Shown piece after piece: positions 40,252-52,271 of a stretch of DNA of 64,000 nt. Where the stretch lies: the NCBI GenBank assembly GCA_015062655.1, contig SUUG01000018.1:1-64000 (forward strand). Reading direction: 5' to 3'. This DNA comes from Coriobacteriaceae bacterium (GTDB lineage: Bacteria; Actinomycetota; Coriobacteriia; Coriobacteriales; Coriobacteriaceae). How positions within the stretch are numbered: the stretch's first letter is position 1; every line of letters starts with the position of its first letter. The notes beneath the pieces were generated by a model. That model was given only the letters and a program-made list of their open reading frames with translations. It did not search any database and was not told the origin of the DNA. A program made the translations under genes and the position numbers.

Positions 40252-40315
40252 ATGCCGAGCGTTCGCGATTCGGCCTTTCCGGCCTCCGAAACGACGAATC
40301 GCGCACGCTCGGCGC
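40252..40315. repeat. Palindromic element, family C copy 1
   Basis: The left arm, 40252-40272, begins ATGCCGAGCGTTCGCG. The right arm, 40295-40315, is its near-perfect complement (two mismatches over 21 bp). It is the first of four family C copies and lies between tRNA-Val and murE. Nothing else is seen in 40100-40399. Confidence 0.88.
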
Positions 40316-45189: not shown

Positions 45190-45585
45190 GTGAAGCGAGG
45201 AGACCGCGCCGTGCTCGCCGCGGCGGCTGCCATCATCGCGGCGGCCGTGCTGTGGATCGCCTTGGGGAGCGGCGGCGGGGGCGACGGCGACCGCGTGGTC
45301 GTGACGCAATCGAGGGGCGGGTTCTATCAGGTGAACCGGCTCTCCGATGATGTCGAGTTCACTGTGGAGACGCCGGGGACCGGGGCCGGGGCGGACGCTC
45401 ATGGCGGCAAGAACGTGGTGCGGGTGCACGGCGGTGAGGTCGAGGTCATCGAGGCGAACTGCGAGAACCAGGTCTGCGTGGAGCACGCGCCCATCTCTGC
45501 GGCCGGGGAGCAGATCGTCTGCCTGCCGCACGGCGTCGTGGTGCAGGTGGCCGAGCGCGCCGAGGACATCGCCCGGCTGAGCTAG
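45190..45585 (+). CDS. NusG domain II-containing exported protein
   Basis: A 131-residue protein with an N-terminal membrane span or signal (residues about 7-26), a Gly/Asp linker and a NusG_II domain. The domain pattern is VVRVHGGEVEVIEANCENQVC, then GEQIVCLPHGVVVQV, with three conserved cysteines. Such proteins are common in clostridia and coriobacteria, often near electron-transfer or FMN-dependent genes, but their role is unsettled. A GTG start with GGAGG upstream is used. Confidence 0.85.
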   Translation: MKRGDRAVLAAAAAIIAAAVLWIALGSGGGGDGDRVVVTQSRGGFYQVNRLSDDVEFTVETPGTGAGADAHGGKNVVRVHGGEVEVIEANCENQVCVEHAPISAAGEQIVCLPHGVVVQVAERAEDIARLS

Positions 45586-45696
45586 GCGGCGGGCCACGCG
45601 GGCGGCGCGGGCCACGCGCCTGGATGCCGCACGCTCAACGTCCGCTCCCGGATACCGCGCACCCGGATGCCGAGCGGCCAGACGCCGCGCGCCCAG

Positions 45697-45791
45697 ATGC
45701 CGAGCGTTCGCAATCCGGCCTTTTCGCCATGAAAAACGCCGAGTTACGAACGCTCGGCATCCCCTGCGACTTGTGTCCGCGCGTCGGGGTA
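45697..45791. repeat. Family C copy 2, left member of a 95-bp direct repeat
   Basis: Palindrome arms ATGCCGAGCGTTCG (45697-45710) and complement (45747-45760) are followed by 31 bp of shared flank. The whole 95 bp matches 48322-48416 with one mismatch (45776 versus 48401). Immediately after, this copy reads TACAGC where the right copy has TATAGT. Confidence 0.95.
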
Positions 45792-45815
45792 CAGCCTGAC
45801 TTTTGCAGCTGAAAT

Positions 45816-45851
45816 GGGCGGTTCTCCCCCGTCTAGCAGGGAGAACCGCCC
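45816..45851. terminator. Bidirectional-looking hairpin at the transposase 3' side
   Basis: GGGCGGTTCTCCC (45816-45828) pairs with GGGAGAACCGCCC (45839-45851), with GTTT on the plus side and ATTTC on the minus side. T-tracts are weak, so it may be a terminator or an insertion-sequence end structure. Confidence 0.55.
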
Positions 45852-45884
45852 GTTTGCGCATGACGTTTCCCGTCGTGGCACGCC

Positions 45885-46584
45885 TCAGGTCCTCGGCTTC
45901 CTCACGGACGCCATGATGTCCCGCACGCGCCCCCTGGAGGCGATCCTGCGGGTCAGGTCGACGCCGACGGCGTCGCCGAGCGCGTCGGTGAGGTCCGTGC
46001 GGTAGTCGAACAGCCAGCTGCTCGCGTCGAGGCGGTGGCCCACCACGTTCGAGAGCGCCTCCTGGACCGCCCCCGCCGATGGCCTCAAGCCGGCCGGTCG
46101 CCCGCTCGGCGCGGCTGCGCTCGGCGTACCTCTCGGACCAGAAGGCGACCTGCTTGACGGGCACCATCACCCGGTGCCTGCGGCCGTCCTCCCCGGTGAC
46201 ATAGATCGCCCTCTCGCCGACCCGGGACTTCACCCTCCAGGTGCCGGCCGCGTTGGCGGCGTAGCCCTCGTCCGAGAGCACCCAGGACTTGAGCTCCCGG
46301 TCGGAGCCGCGCACCGACCGGGAGAACACGTAGCCGTTGCCGTCCAGGACGCAGCGGGCGATGTTGGCCGAGGCGTTGGGGCCCTTGTCGACGACGACCA
46401 CCACCCGCCCCGGCGAGTCCGGCCCGAACCGCACGCCGACGGCGTCCATCGCCGGGACGAGCGTCGCGACGTCCGGCACGTTGCCGGGGGACAGCGCGTA
46501 GTCGAGCGGTATCCCGTCTGCGTCCAGGAACAGCCCCATCTGCACGATCGGGCTCCTGCGGTTCTCCTTGGAGACGCCCCTCAT
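45885..46584 (-). pseudogene. IS1634-family transposase remnant
   Basis: The upstream part (46085-46584) encodes the catalytic-core stretch GVSKENRRSPIVQMGLFLDADGIPLDYALSPGN, then VVVVDKGPNASANIARC and VKQVAFWSERYAERSRAERA, typical of IS1634 transposases. At about 46085 the frame breaks and resumes with the C-terminal segment ASSWLFDYRTDLTDALGDAVGVDLTRR (45885-46088). Both the N-terminus and about 200 internal residues are missing. No intact terminal inverted repeats are recognised. This is a dead element with an internal deletion. Confidence 0.82.
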
Positions 46585-46676
46585 CCATGGGACTGTCTGA
46601 GATTGTCAAACGCCCAGGCGATAAGCTTTCACCAGAATTCATCTCATACCGAATCTTTATTTGTGATATTTTTAAG

Positions 46677-46696
46677 AAGTAAGCATTAGCTTACTT
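46677..46696. promoter_or_regulatory. Perfect 8-bp-arm palindrome before the secreted-protein gene
   Basis: AAGTAAGC-ATTA-GCTTACTT ends 5 bp before the AGGGAG ribosome binding site. It could be an operator or an mRNA hairpin that gates translation. Confidence 0.6.
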
Positions 46697-46710
46697 TTGA
46701 AGGGAGAGCC

Positions 46711-47388
46711 ATGTCAGTTCGTTCATCAAGGGCAATGTCAGCGGTGCTTGCAGCAGCATTGATTACATCGAGCTTCACGCCGATAACGTCGGCCTTCGCA
46801 AGCGCCGAAGCATCGGAAATCACGAATCGGCCGATTGACTCAGCCGAGAAAACAGAAGACGGCGTCCCAGATGAAAGCCATATCATCGTTGACAACGGAG
46901 ATGGATCTTCCTCTCTCATCACGATGGAAGAGACCGAAACAACACGAAGCGTTCTCATCGAAAACCAAAACACTGGAGAAAAAGACTCGTTTGTCCTCGA
47001 TAAAACTTCTAACCTGCTTTACTCAACCCGCACGGGCAAAACGATTGATGCAGCGCAGATTGAAAAAGCTCCAGGAATATCCACGCGCAGCAGCAAATCA
47101 ACCAATACCGTCTACAAATTCTCTTGGAAACAGATCAAAGATGCTGTAGGGTCCGGAGCAACCGCCGGAAACATAGTAGGCGGAATTCTCGCTCTCACGG
47201 GAGCCGGCTCCGCCGCAGGAGGGGTTACCAGCGTCGTCAGCTCAATTATCGCGGGCATCAGCGGCTTCATCCCGTCAGACACAAGGCACGGGATAACAGC
47301 AACGATCACAACGACGAAATGGTATCGGAACGGAAAGAATGTCCCATACCGCACAACAAAAACCCTGACCGGAGTTTGGGTTTACTGA
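46711..47388 (+). CDS. Secreted protein with Gly-rich hydrophobic C-terminal segment (bacteriocin-like)
   Basis: A 225-residue preprotein with a signal peptide (residues 1 to about 31, ending SAFA). It has a polar, acidic middle (SHIIVDNGDGSSSLITMEETE). A C-terminal segment from about 135 reads YKFSWKQIKDAVGSG, then a Gly/Ala/Ile-rich stretch (NIVGGILALTGAGSAAGGV), a basic patch and TKTLTGVWVY. This layout resembles precursors of secreted antimicrobial peptides such as the geobacillin-26 group. Homology is an inference. GC content is visibly lower than in neighbours. It is coupled to a small membrane protein 12 nt downstream and followed by a terminator. Confidence 0.65.
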   Translation: MSVRSSRAMSAVLAAALITSSFTPITSAFASAEASEITNRPIDSAEKTEDGVPDESHIIVDNGDGSSSLITMEETETTRSVLIENQNTGEKDSFVLDKTSNLLYSTRTGKTIDAAQIEKAPGISTRSSKSTNTVYKFSWKQIKDAVGSGATAGNIVGGILALTGAGSAAGGVTSVVSSIIAGISGFIPSDTRHGITATITTTKWYRNGKNVPYRTTKTLTGVWVY

Positions 47389-47400
47389 TCGAAGGAAATC

Positions 47401-47649
47401 ATGAAGAAGTCGTTAATCTCCATAGTCGCCATCCTCATGATTACCAGAGGAATATTGGGGCTTTTCCGCATGGGCGGCCCAATCCCTTTGTTCATCGGAA
47501 TCATCACGGGATTCTTACTCGCTATGTGGGGCGCTCTCGATATCCGTGCTTGCGTCGAAAAGAGACAATCAAAGCTCATAGCTGCCCTGGCGCTTGTGGG
47601 TGGGATCATGCTTTCAGTCGGTTCCGTATATGAGATTATTTCGTTGTGA
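47401..47649 (+). CDS. Small membrane protein, possible immunity partner
   Basis: An 82-residue protein with two to three hydrophobic spans (residues about 5-20, 27-48 and 60-80) and a basic KKS start. AAGGA precedes the ATG, 12 nt after the secreted-protein stop. Size, topology and position fit a self-immunity protein for an antimicrobial peptide, but there is no sequence signature to prove it. Confidence 0.6.
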   Translation: MKKSLISIVAILMITRGILGLFRMGGPIPLFIGIITGFLLAMWGALDIRACVEKRQSKLIAALALVGGIMLSVGSVYEIISL

Positions 47650-47662
47650 GAGATGAAATCAT

Positions 47663-47710
47663 CCGGTCGCCCATCTGCTACTTGCAACAGAGGGCGACCG
47701 GAACAGTTTT
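47663..47710 (+). terminator. Terminator of the secreted-protein/membrane-protein pair
   Basis: CCGGTCGCCC (47663-47672) pairs with GGGCGACCGG (47692-47701), followed by AACAGTTTT. Confidence 0.8.
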
Positions 47711-47765
47711 ATGCTACGGGAAGCTGACTAACCAATCATCGACTGAGAATAATAACCCGATTTGA

Positions 47766-47951
47766 ACGAGCCGAAGGAAGGGTTGTTATACGGATTGGAG
47801 CTTTGACGAAATTAGAAGCTTTATCCCAAAATCGATTCCCCTCCCATACTCTAGAGGAAAAGTCACCGCAATTGGAGGCTATGAGCTCGTCTTCGTTACT
47901 TTCGTCGCAACGCTTCCCCTTAGCGAGCAAGATAGCCAAGACGAGCAATGA
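47766..47951 (+). pseudogene. Possible 3' remnant of a gene overlapping the next start
   Basis: An open frame with no ATG runs from 47766 to a TGA at 47949-47951. It ends with protein-like sequence (AIGGYELVFVTFVATLPLSEQ) and its stop overlaps the next ATG (ATGA). This arrangement suggests a formerly coupled upstream gene that has lost its 5' part. No family is recognised. Confidence 0.35.
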
Positions 47952-48289
47952 GTCCTGAAGTTCTAAAATCGTCCTTCGATGGCATGGTCCCAGGAGTTTG
48001 TTTCCTAGTTGTCGGGGCATGGATGGTGAAGACGGGCAATCCCGGCTTGATTCACAGTTACCATATTGCCCAGATTCCGAGGAACAGGATTCCTTTTGTT
48101 GCCAAATTGATTGGGTTCGGACTAGCGTTGGCGGGGCTCGGCCTCGCCTCCGCAGGCATCATAGCATTCGTGTTCGAAATCCCAATGTCGGCAACAGGTG
48201 CTTTTGCCTTGCCGCTCGTCTTGATCCTTGCCGGCATTGGTTTCTCCTTGCTTACGGTCATAGTGTTCACATTTCGACCATGGTCGTAA
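47948..48289 (+). CDS. Small membrane protein, DUF3784-like
   Basis: A 113-residue protein with three hydrophobic spans. SSFDGMVPGVCFLVVGAWMVKTGN followed by LIHSYHIAQIPRNRIPFVAKLIGFGLALAG has the layout of DUF3784-type proteins, whose function is unknown. The ATG overlaps the stop of a possible upstream remnant, and its own ribosome binding site is weak. A later ATG at 47984 is an alternative start. Confidence 0.6.
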   Translation: MSPEVLKSSFDGMVPGVCFLVVGAWMVKTGNPGLIHSYHIAQIPRNRIPFVAKLIGFGLALAGLGLASAGIIAFVFEIPMSATGAFALPLVLILAGIGFSLLTVIVFTFRPWS

Positions 48290-48321
48290 TATCTATATTG
48301 AGCCTGCCTGAGAAACCCTCC

Positions 48322-48416
48322 ATGCCGAGCGTTCGCAATCCGGCCTTTTCGCCATGAAAAACGCCGAGTTACGAACGCTCGGCATCCCCTGCGACTTGTG
48401 GCCGCGCGTCGGGGTA
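48322..48416. repeat. Family C copy 3, right member of a 95-bp direct repeat
   Basis: Palindrome arms at 48322-48335 and 48372-48385, plus 31 bp of flank, match 45697-45791 with one mismatch in the same orientation. The two copies bound a 2.6-kb lower-GC accessory segment. Confidence 0.95.
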
Positions 48417-48420
48417 TAGT
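48415..48420 (+). promoter_or_regulatory. Candidate -10 of the TPR gene pair
   Basis: TATAGT lies at the edge of the direct repeat, 60 bp upstream of the GTG start. No strong -35 is seen. The corresponding bases in the left repeat copy are TACAGC. Confidence 0.4.
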
Positions 48421-48479: not shown

Positions 48480-49559
48480 GTGGCCTTCGACCCCATCCAG
48501 GAGGACTGCCTGCGCCTCATCCTCGAGAACATGCGACGCGACCGGGTCTTTCCGCTCGAGAACCCCTTCTACATCGCGCGCGGCATGGCGGCCTTCCAGG
48601 AGGACCCCGCCCGCCTCATCCACACCGACCGCGACCGCTCCTTCCACCTCACGGCCCGCGCGGCCGAGGCCGTCGACTACCGTGCCCCCTTCATGGCCAG
48701 CGAGGACGAGGCGATCCAGCAGGAGGACGCCGCCCGCGACCACCTCGCGGAGGCCGTGGCGCTCGATCCCGGCAACTGGGACGCCCGGCGCATGCTCGCC
48801 GAGCTCGAATCCGAGTCGAACGACGCCTTCCTCGCCTTTCTCATCGAGCACCGCCCCGAGGTGGAGGCCGCGGCGCGCGAGGTCGTCGAGGGCGCTGACG
48901 ACCCGTACAGCCGCGAGCTCGCCCGCGACCTCGGCCTGCGCCCGCACCTGCGCTGGCTCGCCGCCCTGGCCTCGCGCTCCCTCATCTCCGGCCGGTACAG
49001 CCAGGCGCTGCGCGTCGCCGAGGAGAGCCTCGATGCCGCGCCGACCGATCCGGCGGGCGTCAGGCACACGGCCGTGCTCGCCCTCGCCAAGCTCGAGCGC
49101 TCCGGCGACGAGCTGCGGCGCTTCCGCCGACGCCACGCCCTCGCCTACCGCACGGGCCGTCCCCCGCGCCGGCACCACCTGTCAGACCGCCAGCTCGACC
49201 CCTGGACCCTCATCGCCCAGATGAGCATCGCCTGGCGCTCGTTCGACGTCGCCGCAGCCAACCGCTCCCTCTCATCGTTGCTCAAGATGGGTCCGCATGC
49301 TGCCGAGGCCCTCTACCATCAGGCCGAGTTCCCCGAGGGCATCTTCTCGCGCGTGCATGTCGAGCCAGGCAGCGAGGATGAGCTCATCCTCGCCCTCTCC
49401 GAGGCCACACCGCTCTTCCAGGAGGGCCTCGGCGCGCCCGAATCAGCGGCCTTCTCGGCCTGGGTCGCCGAGAACGACCAGGTCAGATCAGCACTGAGCG
49501 CCGATGCCGCCACGGCCCGCGAGATGCAGGGCGCGGCGCGCCCCGAGGGCGGCAACTGA
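48480..49559 (+). CDS. TPR-like helical repeat protein
   Basis: A 359-residue soluble protein built of helical pairs with TPR spacing (AEAVALDPGNWDARRMLAELE, SGRYSQALRVAEESLDAAPTDP). No signal or membrane span. The GTG at 48480 is preferred because AAAGGAGG precedes it. It ends 1 nt before the next gene, which has similar composition and repeat style, so the two are cotranscribed and possibly paralogous. Probably a protein-interaction scaffold; no function is known. Confidence 0.75.
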   Translation: MAFDPIQEDCLRLILENMRRDRVFPLENPFYIARGMAAFQEDPARLIHTDRDRSFHLTARAAEAVDYRAPFMASEDEAIQQEDAARDHLAEAVALDPGNWDARRMLAELESESNDAFLAFLIEHRPEVEAAAREVVEGADDPYSRELARDLGLRPHLRWLAALASRSLISGRYSQALRVAEESLDAAPTDPAGVRHTAVLALAKLERSGDELRRFRRRHALAYRTGRPPRRHHLSDRQLDPWTLIAQMSIAWRSFDVAAANRSLSSLLKMGPHAAEALYHQAEFPEGIFSRVHVEPGSEDELILALSEATPLFQEGLGAPESAAFSAWVAENDQVRSALSADAATAREMQGAARPEGGN

Positions 49560-49560
49560 C

Positions 49561-50616
49561 ATGGAGCCCTCCGCGTACATCCCGCGCTATCTCGAACGCT
49601 CCTACCTGCGCGCCCACCCCGATCTCACACCGGCGGCCCGCACGCTCGTCCACGAGGAGATCGCCGCCGACCCCGAGCGCTTCGCCACCGACGACCACGC
49701 ACGGGTCCTCCTCTCCTACCAGCGCGTCCACAGCGATCTGCTCCTCGAGCTCTCGCGCATGGAGGAGCTGCCCGACGGCGAGTTCGAGCAGCGGCGCAAC
49801 GCCCTGTTCGACCGGGCGCGCGAGGAGCTCCATCGCATCGGGGAGGCCGACCGCCTCTGCGTCGACGCGCGCCTGACCGACATCATGCTCGCCGACGTCC
49901 CCCTCGACGCGCTCATCAACGACCTGCTCGTCCTCGAGCGCCAGGTGGCCGACTACCTCGCCGCCGGCGTGGAGGGCTTCTCAGCCGACGCCCCGCATTT
50001 CTGGAACGAGGAGGTGCTCGAGCGCGACGGCGAGACGGCGGCCGAGCGCACCGCCGCCTCGCCCGAGGTGATCGGATGGCTGCACACCCTTGAGGCGATC
50101 GGCGAGCTCTGCCTCGCGAGCGCGCGCTACCAGGCCGCCGCCGTCTACGCGCGGCGCGTCATGCGGGCCGAGGGCTACACGAGCAACGCCCGCGGGACCC
50201 TCCTGCTGGCCCTCGCCCGCCTCGAGCTTGAGGACGAGTTCTTCGAGGCCGCCTCCGACGGCGATGGCGCAGCCGCGCAGGGCGACCCCTGGGGCCCGGT
50301 CGAGGACTCCCCCTGGTACCTGCTCGGACGCACGGTCCTGCTCTACAAGGCCGGCCGCGACCGCGCGGCGCGACGCGCCCTGAAGGAGTTCGCCCGCCGC
50401 TGCGAGGGCGGCGCCTTCTTCCTGCTGAACCCCACCTACCTCACGCCCTACCTGCCCGTGCGCCCGCCGGCGGCCCATGCGTGGGAGCGCTCCCACCAGG
50501 CCGTCTGGGAGGCCGACGGCATCCTCGCCGACTGCCCGGATTTCGGCACCTGGGCGGCCGGTGTGCCCGGCGTCGAGGACGCGTCGGAGGAGTTCGCGCG
50601 GCGGCAGGGGTTCTAG
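49561..50616 (+). CDS. TPR-like helical repeat protein
   Basis: A 351-residue soluble protein. LHTLEAIGELCLASARYQAAAVYARRVMRAEGYTSNARGTLLLALARLE and a later RTVLLYKAGRDRAARRALKEFARR form TPR-type helices. NPTYLTPYLPVRPP near the C-terminus is reminiscent of ST7-type TPR proteins. It is coupled to the upstream TPR gene. Confidence 0.72.
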   Translation: MEPSAYIPRYLERSYLRAHPDLTPAARTLVHEEIAADPERFATDDHARVLLSYQRVHSDLLLELSRMEELPDGEFEQRRNALFDRAREELHRIGEADRLCVDARLTDIMLADVPLDALINDLLVLERQVADYLAAGVEGFSADAPHFWNEEVLERDGETAAERTAASPEVIGWLHTLEAIGELCLASARYQAAAVYARRVMRAEGYTSNARGTLLLALARLELEDEFFEAASDGDGAAAQGDPWGPVEDSPWYLLGRTVLLYKAGRDRAARRALKEFARRCEGGAFFLLNPTYLTPYLPVRPPAAHAWERSHQAVWEADGILADCPDFGTWAAGVPGVEDASEEFARRQGF

Positions 50617-51429: not shown

Positions 51430-52224
51430 ATGGTACAGCCGCAACGGGGCACGATCTGCCCCGGATGCCCGCATCGGGCCGCCTACGTGGTGGTGAAGGA
51501 GGCGATGGGCCGCGGGCGCGGGCGCGTCATCTGCGGCGACGCCGGCTGTCCGGCCGTGGGCCGGGTGCACCCGGCGGCGAGCGCCTGCCCGGGCGGCCAG
51601 GACGCGCTGCTTCCCCGCTACAACCAGGCGGTTCCCGTCGGCAGCCCGCAGGAGCCGGGAGCGGACCGCGTGGCGCATTTCGTTCTCGACGCCGACCTCA
51701 TGGCCGATGCGCAGGGATGCTTCTCCCGGATGCGGCTTGCCGGCGAGGGCGCCTCGGCGCTGCTCTGCGTGATGGCATCGAGCGCGCGGTTCCTCACGGC
51801 AGCCGTTGCGGACGAGCTCCTGGTCCGGATCCGCGCGCTCGGCTACGAGGAGGCGCTGGCCGTCGACCCCTTCGACACCCAGGACGCAACGGCGGCGGTG
51901 CGGGAGCTCCTTGAGGGCGGAGGCGTCCACGCCCTCGTGTTCTGCTCCCCCTGCGCCCAGCTCATGCGCCGCACCCCGCTCGCGCCCGCCGTCGTCGACC
52001 GCCTGTCGTGCGTTGGCTGCATGCGCTGCATCCAGATCACCGGCTGCCCCGGGCTCAGCTTCGCGCCGCCCGCCGCTGTGATCGATGTGGACGCCTGCTC
52101 CGGATGCGACCTGTGCGCCGACTACTGCCGCACGCACGTGATCTCCTCGCCGCGCACCGGGCAGCCGCCCGAGATGCGCCGCCGCGACCGCCTCGCCGCC
52201 GCCATAGATGCCGAGCGTTCGTAA
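51430..52224 (+). CDS. IorA-like miniature iron-sulfur protein
   Basis: A 264-residue protein that joins two pieces of the indolepyruvate ferredoxin oxidoreductase alpha chain. CPGCPHRAAYVVVKEA at residues 10-25 with a GDAGCP motif matches the IorA CPGCPHR region. CVGCMRCIQITGCPG (from about 194) and CSGCDLCADYC (from about 222) match its 4Fe-4S tail. The large thiamine-diphosphate domains are missing. The middle has a Cys-rich FCSPCAQ. An electron-transfer or regulatory role is inferred. The last codons (DAERS and stop) are supplied by a family C palindrome. Confidence 0.75.
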   Translation: MVQPQRGTICPGCPHRAAYVVVKEAMGRGRGRVICGDAGCPAVGRVHPAASACPGGQDALLPRYNQAVPVGSPQEPGADRVAHFVLDADLMADAQGCFSRMRLAGEGASALLCVMASSARFLTAAVADELLVRIRALGYEEALAVDPFDTQDATAAVRELLEGGGVHALVFCSPCAQLMRRTPLAPAVVDRLSCVGCMRCIQITGCPGLSFAPPAAVIDVDACSGCDLCADYCRTHVISSPRTGQPPEMRRRDRLAAAIDAERS

Positions 52225-52271
52225 CTCGGCATTTTCCGCCGCTATTTTGCCGCATTATGAACGCTCGGCAT
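52208..52271. repeat. Family C copy 4, between converging genes
   Basis: ATGCCGAGCGTTC at 52208-52220 and its complement at 52259-52271 with a 38-bp loop. The left arm encodes the end of the IorA-like protein and the right arm the end of the broken hydrolase. Confidence 0.92.

Follow-up and report, generated by a model that had tools for sequence, protein, structure and literature searches.

The 98-bp direct repeats that lie between a NusG-II gene and a pair of TPR genes in the window (the whole 64,000-nucleotide stretch analysed, from contig SUUG01000018.1 of a Coriobacteriaceae bacterium) are best explained as a target-site duplication made by an IS1634-family element when it inserted, a reading to which a probability of about 0.88 is assigned. 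The mechanism, long target duplication by IS1634, is known and the place is new, and the island between the repeats overlays a dead IS. The locus contains the following features.

45190..45585, forward strand: NusG-II domain protein, left neighbour (PF07009, E 7.6e-21), adjoining the first TPR gene in relatives
45697..45794, forward strand: left copy of the probable 98-bp target duplication, ending in TACAG and abutting the IS right end
45697..45760, no strand: dispersed palindrome in the left copy, 64 bp
45795..46584, reverse strand: IS1634-family remnant, from the right end as far as 46091 and again over 46100-46584; the left end and 0.4 kb of the interior are missing
46585..48321, no strand: low-GC segment, 49% GC, in the place of the IS left part
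46711..47388, forward strand: 225-aa secreted protein, family unassigned; six further genomes of the order encode relatives
47401..47649, forward strand: 82-aa small membrane protein after the secreted protein; a similar ORF follows in five relatives
47948..48289, forward strand: 113-aa probable membrane protein; DUF3784 label unsupported
48322..48419, forward strand: right copy of the probable 98-bp target duplication, ending in TATAG and continuing into native TPR upstream sequence
48322..48385, no strand: dispersed palindrome in the right copy, 64 bp
48415..48420, forward strand: TATAGT, probable -10 box of the TPR operon, with the duplication boundary between bases 5 and 6
48480..50616, forward strand: downstream TPR gene pair (48480-49559 and 49561-50616), PF13428/PF14559 for the first gene

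The two repeats (45697-45794 and 48322-48419) have the same orientation, are identical at 96 of 98 positions with a spacing of 2625, and constitute the longest direct repeat in a 6.5-kb stretch; the length and identity of the match are far beyond chance. The earlier note had described 95-bp repeats matching at 94 positions, which proved to be real and slightly longer. The copies differ at TGTG[T/G]CC and TA[C/T]AG, and these two differences indicate that the insertion is not recent. Each copy is a composite of the 64-bp palindrome (45697-45760 or 48322-48385) and the following 34 bp, and the homology is limited on the left by the first base of the palindrome and on the right by the IS end (45795). 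The 34-bp part, present genome-wide solely in these two copies, is native upstream sequence of the TPR gene; the remaining genomic matches to a 111-position repeat query stop at or before position 83. No match to Rfam was obtained across the locus.

The IS remnant that abuts the left copy was aligned to an intact 1983-bp IS1634-family element of a related genome (L150). IS positions 1687-1983 correspond to 45795-46091 and positions 799-1283 to 46100-46584, with DNA identities of 86% and 84%. Two stretches have been lost: positions 1284-1686, and positions 1-798, which comprise the left end and the N-terminus of the transposase. The truncated transposase gene matches NF033559 with 77 bits (E 1.4e-21; cut-off 100 bits) and is 87% identical to the corresponding part of the full-length relative; this match and the DNA identity to the intact element support the decayed IS1634 transposase named at first reading. 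The right end (CCTGACTTTTGCAG) is intact and begins at 45795, immediately beyond the left repeat; its last 14 bases are identical to those of the intact L150 relative, and its sequence at 45795 (CCTGACTT...) fits the IS1634-family terminus pattern C-----YT (PMC2266710). Of the terminal inverted repeats the right one alone remains, so the locus is a remnant and not a complete member, and it is the sole IS1634-type match in this genome. The sequence GGAGGGTTTCTCAG before 48322 was considered as a degenerate left end and rejected; because this resemblance is weak and by eye, and the right end is perfectly kept, the left end is treated as lost. The right repeat copy is consequently not next to an IS terminus, and its original left limit, and with it the original repeat length, may differ from the present one.

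Where a relative has both genes identified, NusG-II adjoins the first TPR gene across a gap of about 90-400 bp that holds neither IS nor cargo, and both TPR genes are kept. Fourteen relative loci were compared; NusG-II was unrecognised in four of them, yet the distance from the dehydrogenase to TPR is short there too, and an island between NusG-II and TPR was found in none of the relatives examined. Alignment with relatives had been put forward as the way to check the locus, and the adjacency of NusG-II and TPR with the island absent supports insertion with duplication. The proposal in the earlier note that promoter-proximal sequence of the TPR operon was duplicated agrees with this empty site, but the probable agent of the duplication is the IS1634-family element and not the island as a whole.

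The closest relative at the locus is G044 (74% identity in TPR1), in which the intergenic GCATGACGGGGTATAGTAAACGAAC matches GCGCGTCGGGGTATAGTAGACGGAC of the right copy, indicating that the right copy is continuous with native sequence. In the window and in 12 of the 14 relatives, TPR1 is preceded at a distance of 25-80 nt by a TA[TCA]A[CG]T box; from this conservation, TATAGT at 48415-48420 is very probably the -10 of the TPR operon promoter. It had been noticed that the right repeat reaches TATAGT and that the left copy has TACAGC at the same point. Comparison with G044 shows TATAGT to be ancestral; the right copy leads into the native -10, and the left copy has drifted.

Direct repeats flanking IS1634-type elements gathered from genomes of Coriobacteriales were measured. 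The 25 non-redundant insertions with a recognisable right end carry repeats of 66-504 bp, mostly perfect, and repeat length varies by site even for identical elements (80, 157 and 290 bp in G361; 88, 315, 371, 430 and 504 bp in G106); for several surveyed copies no long repeat was detected or the copy lay at a contig end. Direct repeats of 44-400 bp flank the copies of Mycoplasmopsis gallopavonis (L275-L285), 47 bp a copy in a Streptococcus phage, 58 bp the Actinomyces oris copy and 14 bp the Ligilactobacillus salivarius copy, and a Carnobacterium plasmid copy has a long repeat that is interrupted in one copy (pieces of 175 and 144 bp). Around five further copies on plasmids, no repeat of at least 12 bp could be attributed to the IS ends. 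Several copies of one subfamily in G118 and G106 (e.g., L220-L224, L229) have a single in-frame TGA in the transposase match, the site of this TGA differing between the two genomes.

Long variable direct repeats of 8-514 bp have been recorded since the 1990s for two elements of the family, IS1634 and IS1549, with no mechanism or model proposed, the family norm being a duplication of 5-6 bp (PMC2266710); that of ISGka5 is 6 bp (PMC8024623). Given the published range and the 66-504 bp in the order, 98 bp is an ordinary value for such an element, and the long variable repeat of the IS1634/IS1549 group is found here. The window copy resembles IS1634 (Mycoplasma mycoides) and IS1549 (Mycobacterium smegmatis) in transposase family and long variable direct repeats; unlike them it is decayed, and one repeat edge in Coriobacteriales lies on a -10-like box. 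With typical IS1634-family elements it shares the transposase family and the end pattern but not the duplication of 5-6 bp, which is replaced by 98 bp here and 66-504 bp in the coriobacterial set. The long duplication of IS1634, known from two bacteria, thus proves to be common across one order of gut bacteria.

The target-duplication reading is based on the start of the IS right end, with its 14 identical terminal bases, right after the left repeat, on the 66-504 bp repeats of intact relatives, on the empty site, on the published repeats of IS1634 and IS1549 (PMC2266710), and on the position of the joint in a conserved -10, a TANNNT box being hit likewise by 19 of the 26 insertions. Against it stand the loss of the IS left end, the left repeat limit now being the edge of the palindrome at which the cargo starts, the presence of the IS as a single decayed copy, the two differences between the 98-bp copies, and several IS1634-type copies with no long repeat.

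DDE transposases join the 3' ends of the element to 5' phosphates of the target. The site before insertion would have read NusG-II, one palindrome, GGGGTATAGT and TPR, and an IS1634-family element would have inserted there, between the two genes, with the transposase gene pointing against the TPR operon. Strand transfer of its right end would have been to the template strand, between bases 5 and 6 of the -10 (TATAG|T), and that of its left end to the non-template strand, about 98 bp farther upstream, whereupon fill-in repair of the long stagger would have duplicated the intervening stretch, palindrome included; the same geometry, with a stagger of 66-504 nt filled in, may apply to the order in general. 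The TPR-side copy would thereby have kept the whole promoter, and the NusG-II-side copy, cut at the -10, would have drifted to TACAG. Later, and presumably in this order, the IS would have been shortened by 0.8 kb on the left and by 0.4 kb internally, and the low-GC segment with the secreted and membrane protein genes would have taken the place of the IS left part.

The palindrome is itself dispersed. It occurs in the window at 40252-40265, 45697-45760, 48322-48385 and 52208-52271, and in about 110 copies in the 2.07-Mb genome, often clustered at short spacing; half-sites on the two strands number 112 + 111 here (G000) versus 4 + 0 in the nearest relative, and the palindrome was found in this species only (0 of 59 relatives). 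Its length is fixed, with 51 of 52 copies examined being exactly 64 bp, and its 14-bp ends (ATGCCGAGCGTTCG ... CGAACGCTCGGCAT) are near-invariant around a variable interior. REP/BIME-type palindromic repeats are short dispersed palindromes, and the 64-bp unit is likewise short, palindromic, dispersed and clustered in several places; it differs from them in that the REP-associated Y1 transposase (PF01797) had no match in this 98.7%-complete genome and that the unit was not detected in 59 relatives. REP-mediated mobility was rejected, as the Y1 transposase was not found. Imperfect 15-bp tandem repeats (CCGGATGCCGAGCG-like) at 45648-45706, immediately 5' of the left palindrome, share its ATGCCGAGCG start.

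Recombination or slippage between dispersed palindrome copies could in principle have duplicated the 98 bp, with the IS and the cargo arriving later, and the start of the repeat exactly at the edge of a many-copy dispersed palindrome would fit such an origin. It is nevertheless improbable: the two copies share individual variants over the 64 bp as well as 34 unique bp, whereas other palindromes are at most about 90% alike; the right limit coincides to the base with the IS end; and intact IS relatives make such repeats at sites without the palindrome.

The segment 46585-48321 has a GC content of about 49% compared with 67% for the window, so the lower GC reported for the island was verified. 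Its right junction is the palindrome edge, at which the usual preceding G is missing. Relatives of the secreted protein were found in six other genomes of the order with 26-37% identity, and a small membrane-protein ORF directly follows a secreted protein of about 210-225 aa in five scattered genomes (L256-L260), the small membrane proteins of which align poorly with one another. Neither the 225-aa nor the 82-aa protein reaches a Pfam or NCBIfam cut-off; from their architecture, it may be guessed that they form a bacteriocin-type toxin/immunity pair. The DUF3784-like label given to 47948-48289 received no Pfam or NCBIfam support at E 0.1. The low-GC genes came separately from the IS and are secondary to the duplication.

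Direct repeats around foreign low-GC DNA, with an empty site in relatives, are also what an integrative element using site-specific recombination would leave if the 98-bp unit were its attachment site. This origin is very improbable and was rejected: no site-specific recombinase was recognised among the island ORFs scanned (Pfam, NCBIfam), the left boundary is an IS1634 terminus lying at the repeat, and relatives of the island genes were found in none of the plasmids or viral contigs searched. The suggestion that the repeated element is itself the integration or recombination site was likewise unsupported: the palindrome, which makes up two thirds of the unit, is dispersed and has other flanks elsewhere, and the remaining third is unique.

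What most deserves pursuit is a motif that recurs in the order at the right-end joint, the joint being the repeat edge that touches the IS right end, read on the strand opposite the transposase (n = 26, including the window). The joints include TATAA|T, TAGAA|T, TACAA|T, TAGAG|T, TAT|GAT, TATACT| and others, and in the window the conserved -10 is cut as TATAG|T. TANNNT starting at offset -7 to 0 was found at 19 of 26 joints (18 of 25 without the window), versus a background of 4.4% at the other positions up to 300 bp away and 5.9% at those up to 60 bp away; the nominal p of about 1e-18 applies to an offset window picked after viewing the data and to copies of one element that are not fully independent. 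By codon-usage gene calls, which are still heuristic, 25 of 26 joints are intergenic (control 30%), a co-oriented gene starts within 300 nt of 13 (control 9%), and an antisense neighbour faces 6 (control 9%). With a cruder caller in which the longest ORF wins, 16 of 26 are intergenic and 6 have a co-oriented start, but this caller mis-calls strands in GC-rich DNA, including the TPR locus of the window. The motif was missing at the right-end joints of the Mycoplasmopsis gallopavonis copies and the Actinomyces copy and is therefore not universal; the former, with long repeats and no motif, are a useful contrast to the coriobacterial set. No earlier report of a -10-like box at the repeat edge was found in the searchable literature. 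Two published single cases of IS1549 insertion agree only loosely with this pattern: one hit the promoter region of ripAB (PMC12338722), and the other, which made a duplication of 13 bp, lies inside lsr2 (PMC10066036).

Promoter anchoring of the joints is suggestive. It is tentatively proposed, at somewhat less than even odds, that the long-repeat IS1634-type transposases of Coriobacteriales and some Bacillota target promoters, with the right end attacking the template strand within the -10 box, possibly that of a melted open complex, and the left end attacking the opposite strand at a point tens to hundreds of bases farther upstream. If so, each insertion with its variable duplication would restore an intact promoter for the downstream gene, which would account for the variable duplications as well as for the sparing of the host by the element; the window locus shows that such an insertion can leave a neighbouring operon promoter whole. 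With about 26 long duplications in one order, of which one edge recurrently falls on a -10-like motif and the other seems unconstrained, an unexplained curiosity becomes a testable claim on target choice and cutting by the transposase.

The chances are about even that TANNNT reflects a mere preference of the transposase for AT-rich, TA-containing sites, promoters being hit as AT-rich and safe. This is in keeping with the lack of enrichment of -35 hexamers at the joints (P 0.33), the joint offset relative to the box, which differs between subfamilies, the antisense gene facing 6 of 26 joints, and the Mycoplasmopsis copies. A base preference accounts less well for the intergenic position of 25 joints and the co-oriented starts at 13, and for the enrichment of TG preceding the box (7 of 19 versus 13%, p 0.009). 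Two plasmid insertions also argue for promoters: the Carnobacterium joint lies immediately 3' of TTGACA-N17-TATATT, upstream of a PTS gene, and that of the IS1634-type element on the L. salivarius plasmid (L264, 2350-4434) is immediately preceded by TGTGCTATAAT and lies a short distance 5' of the erm(C) leader.
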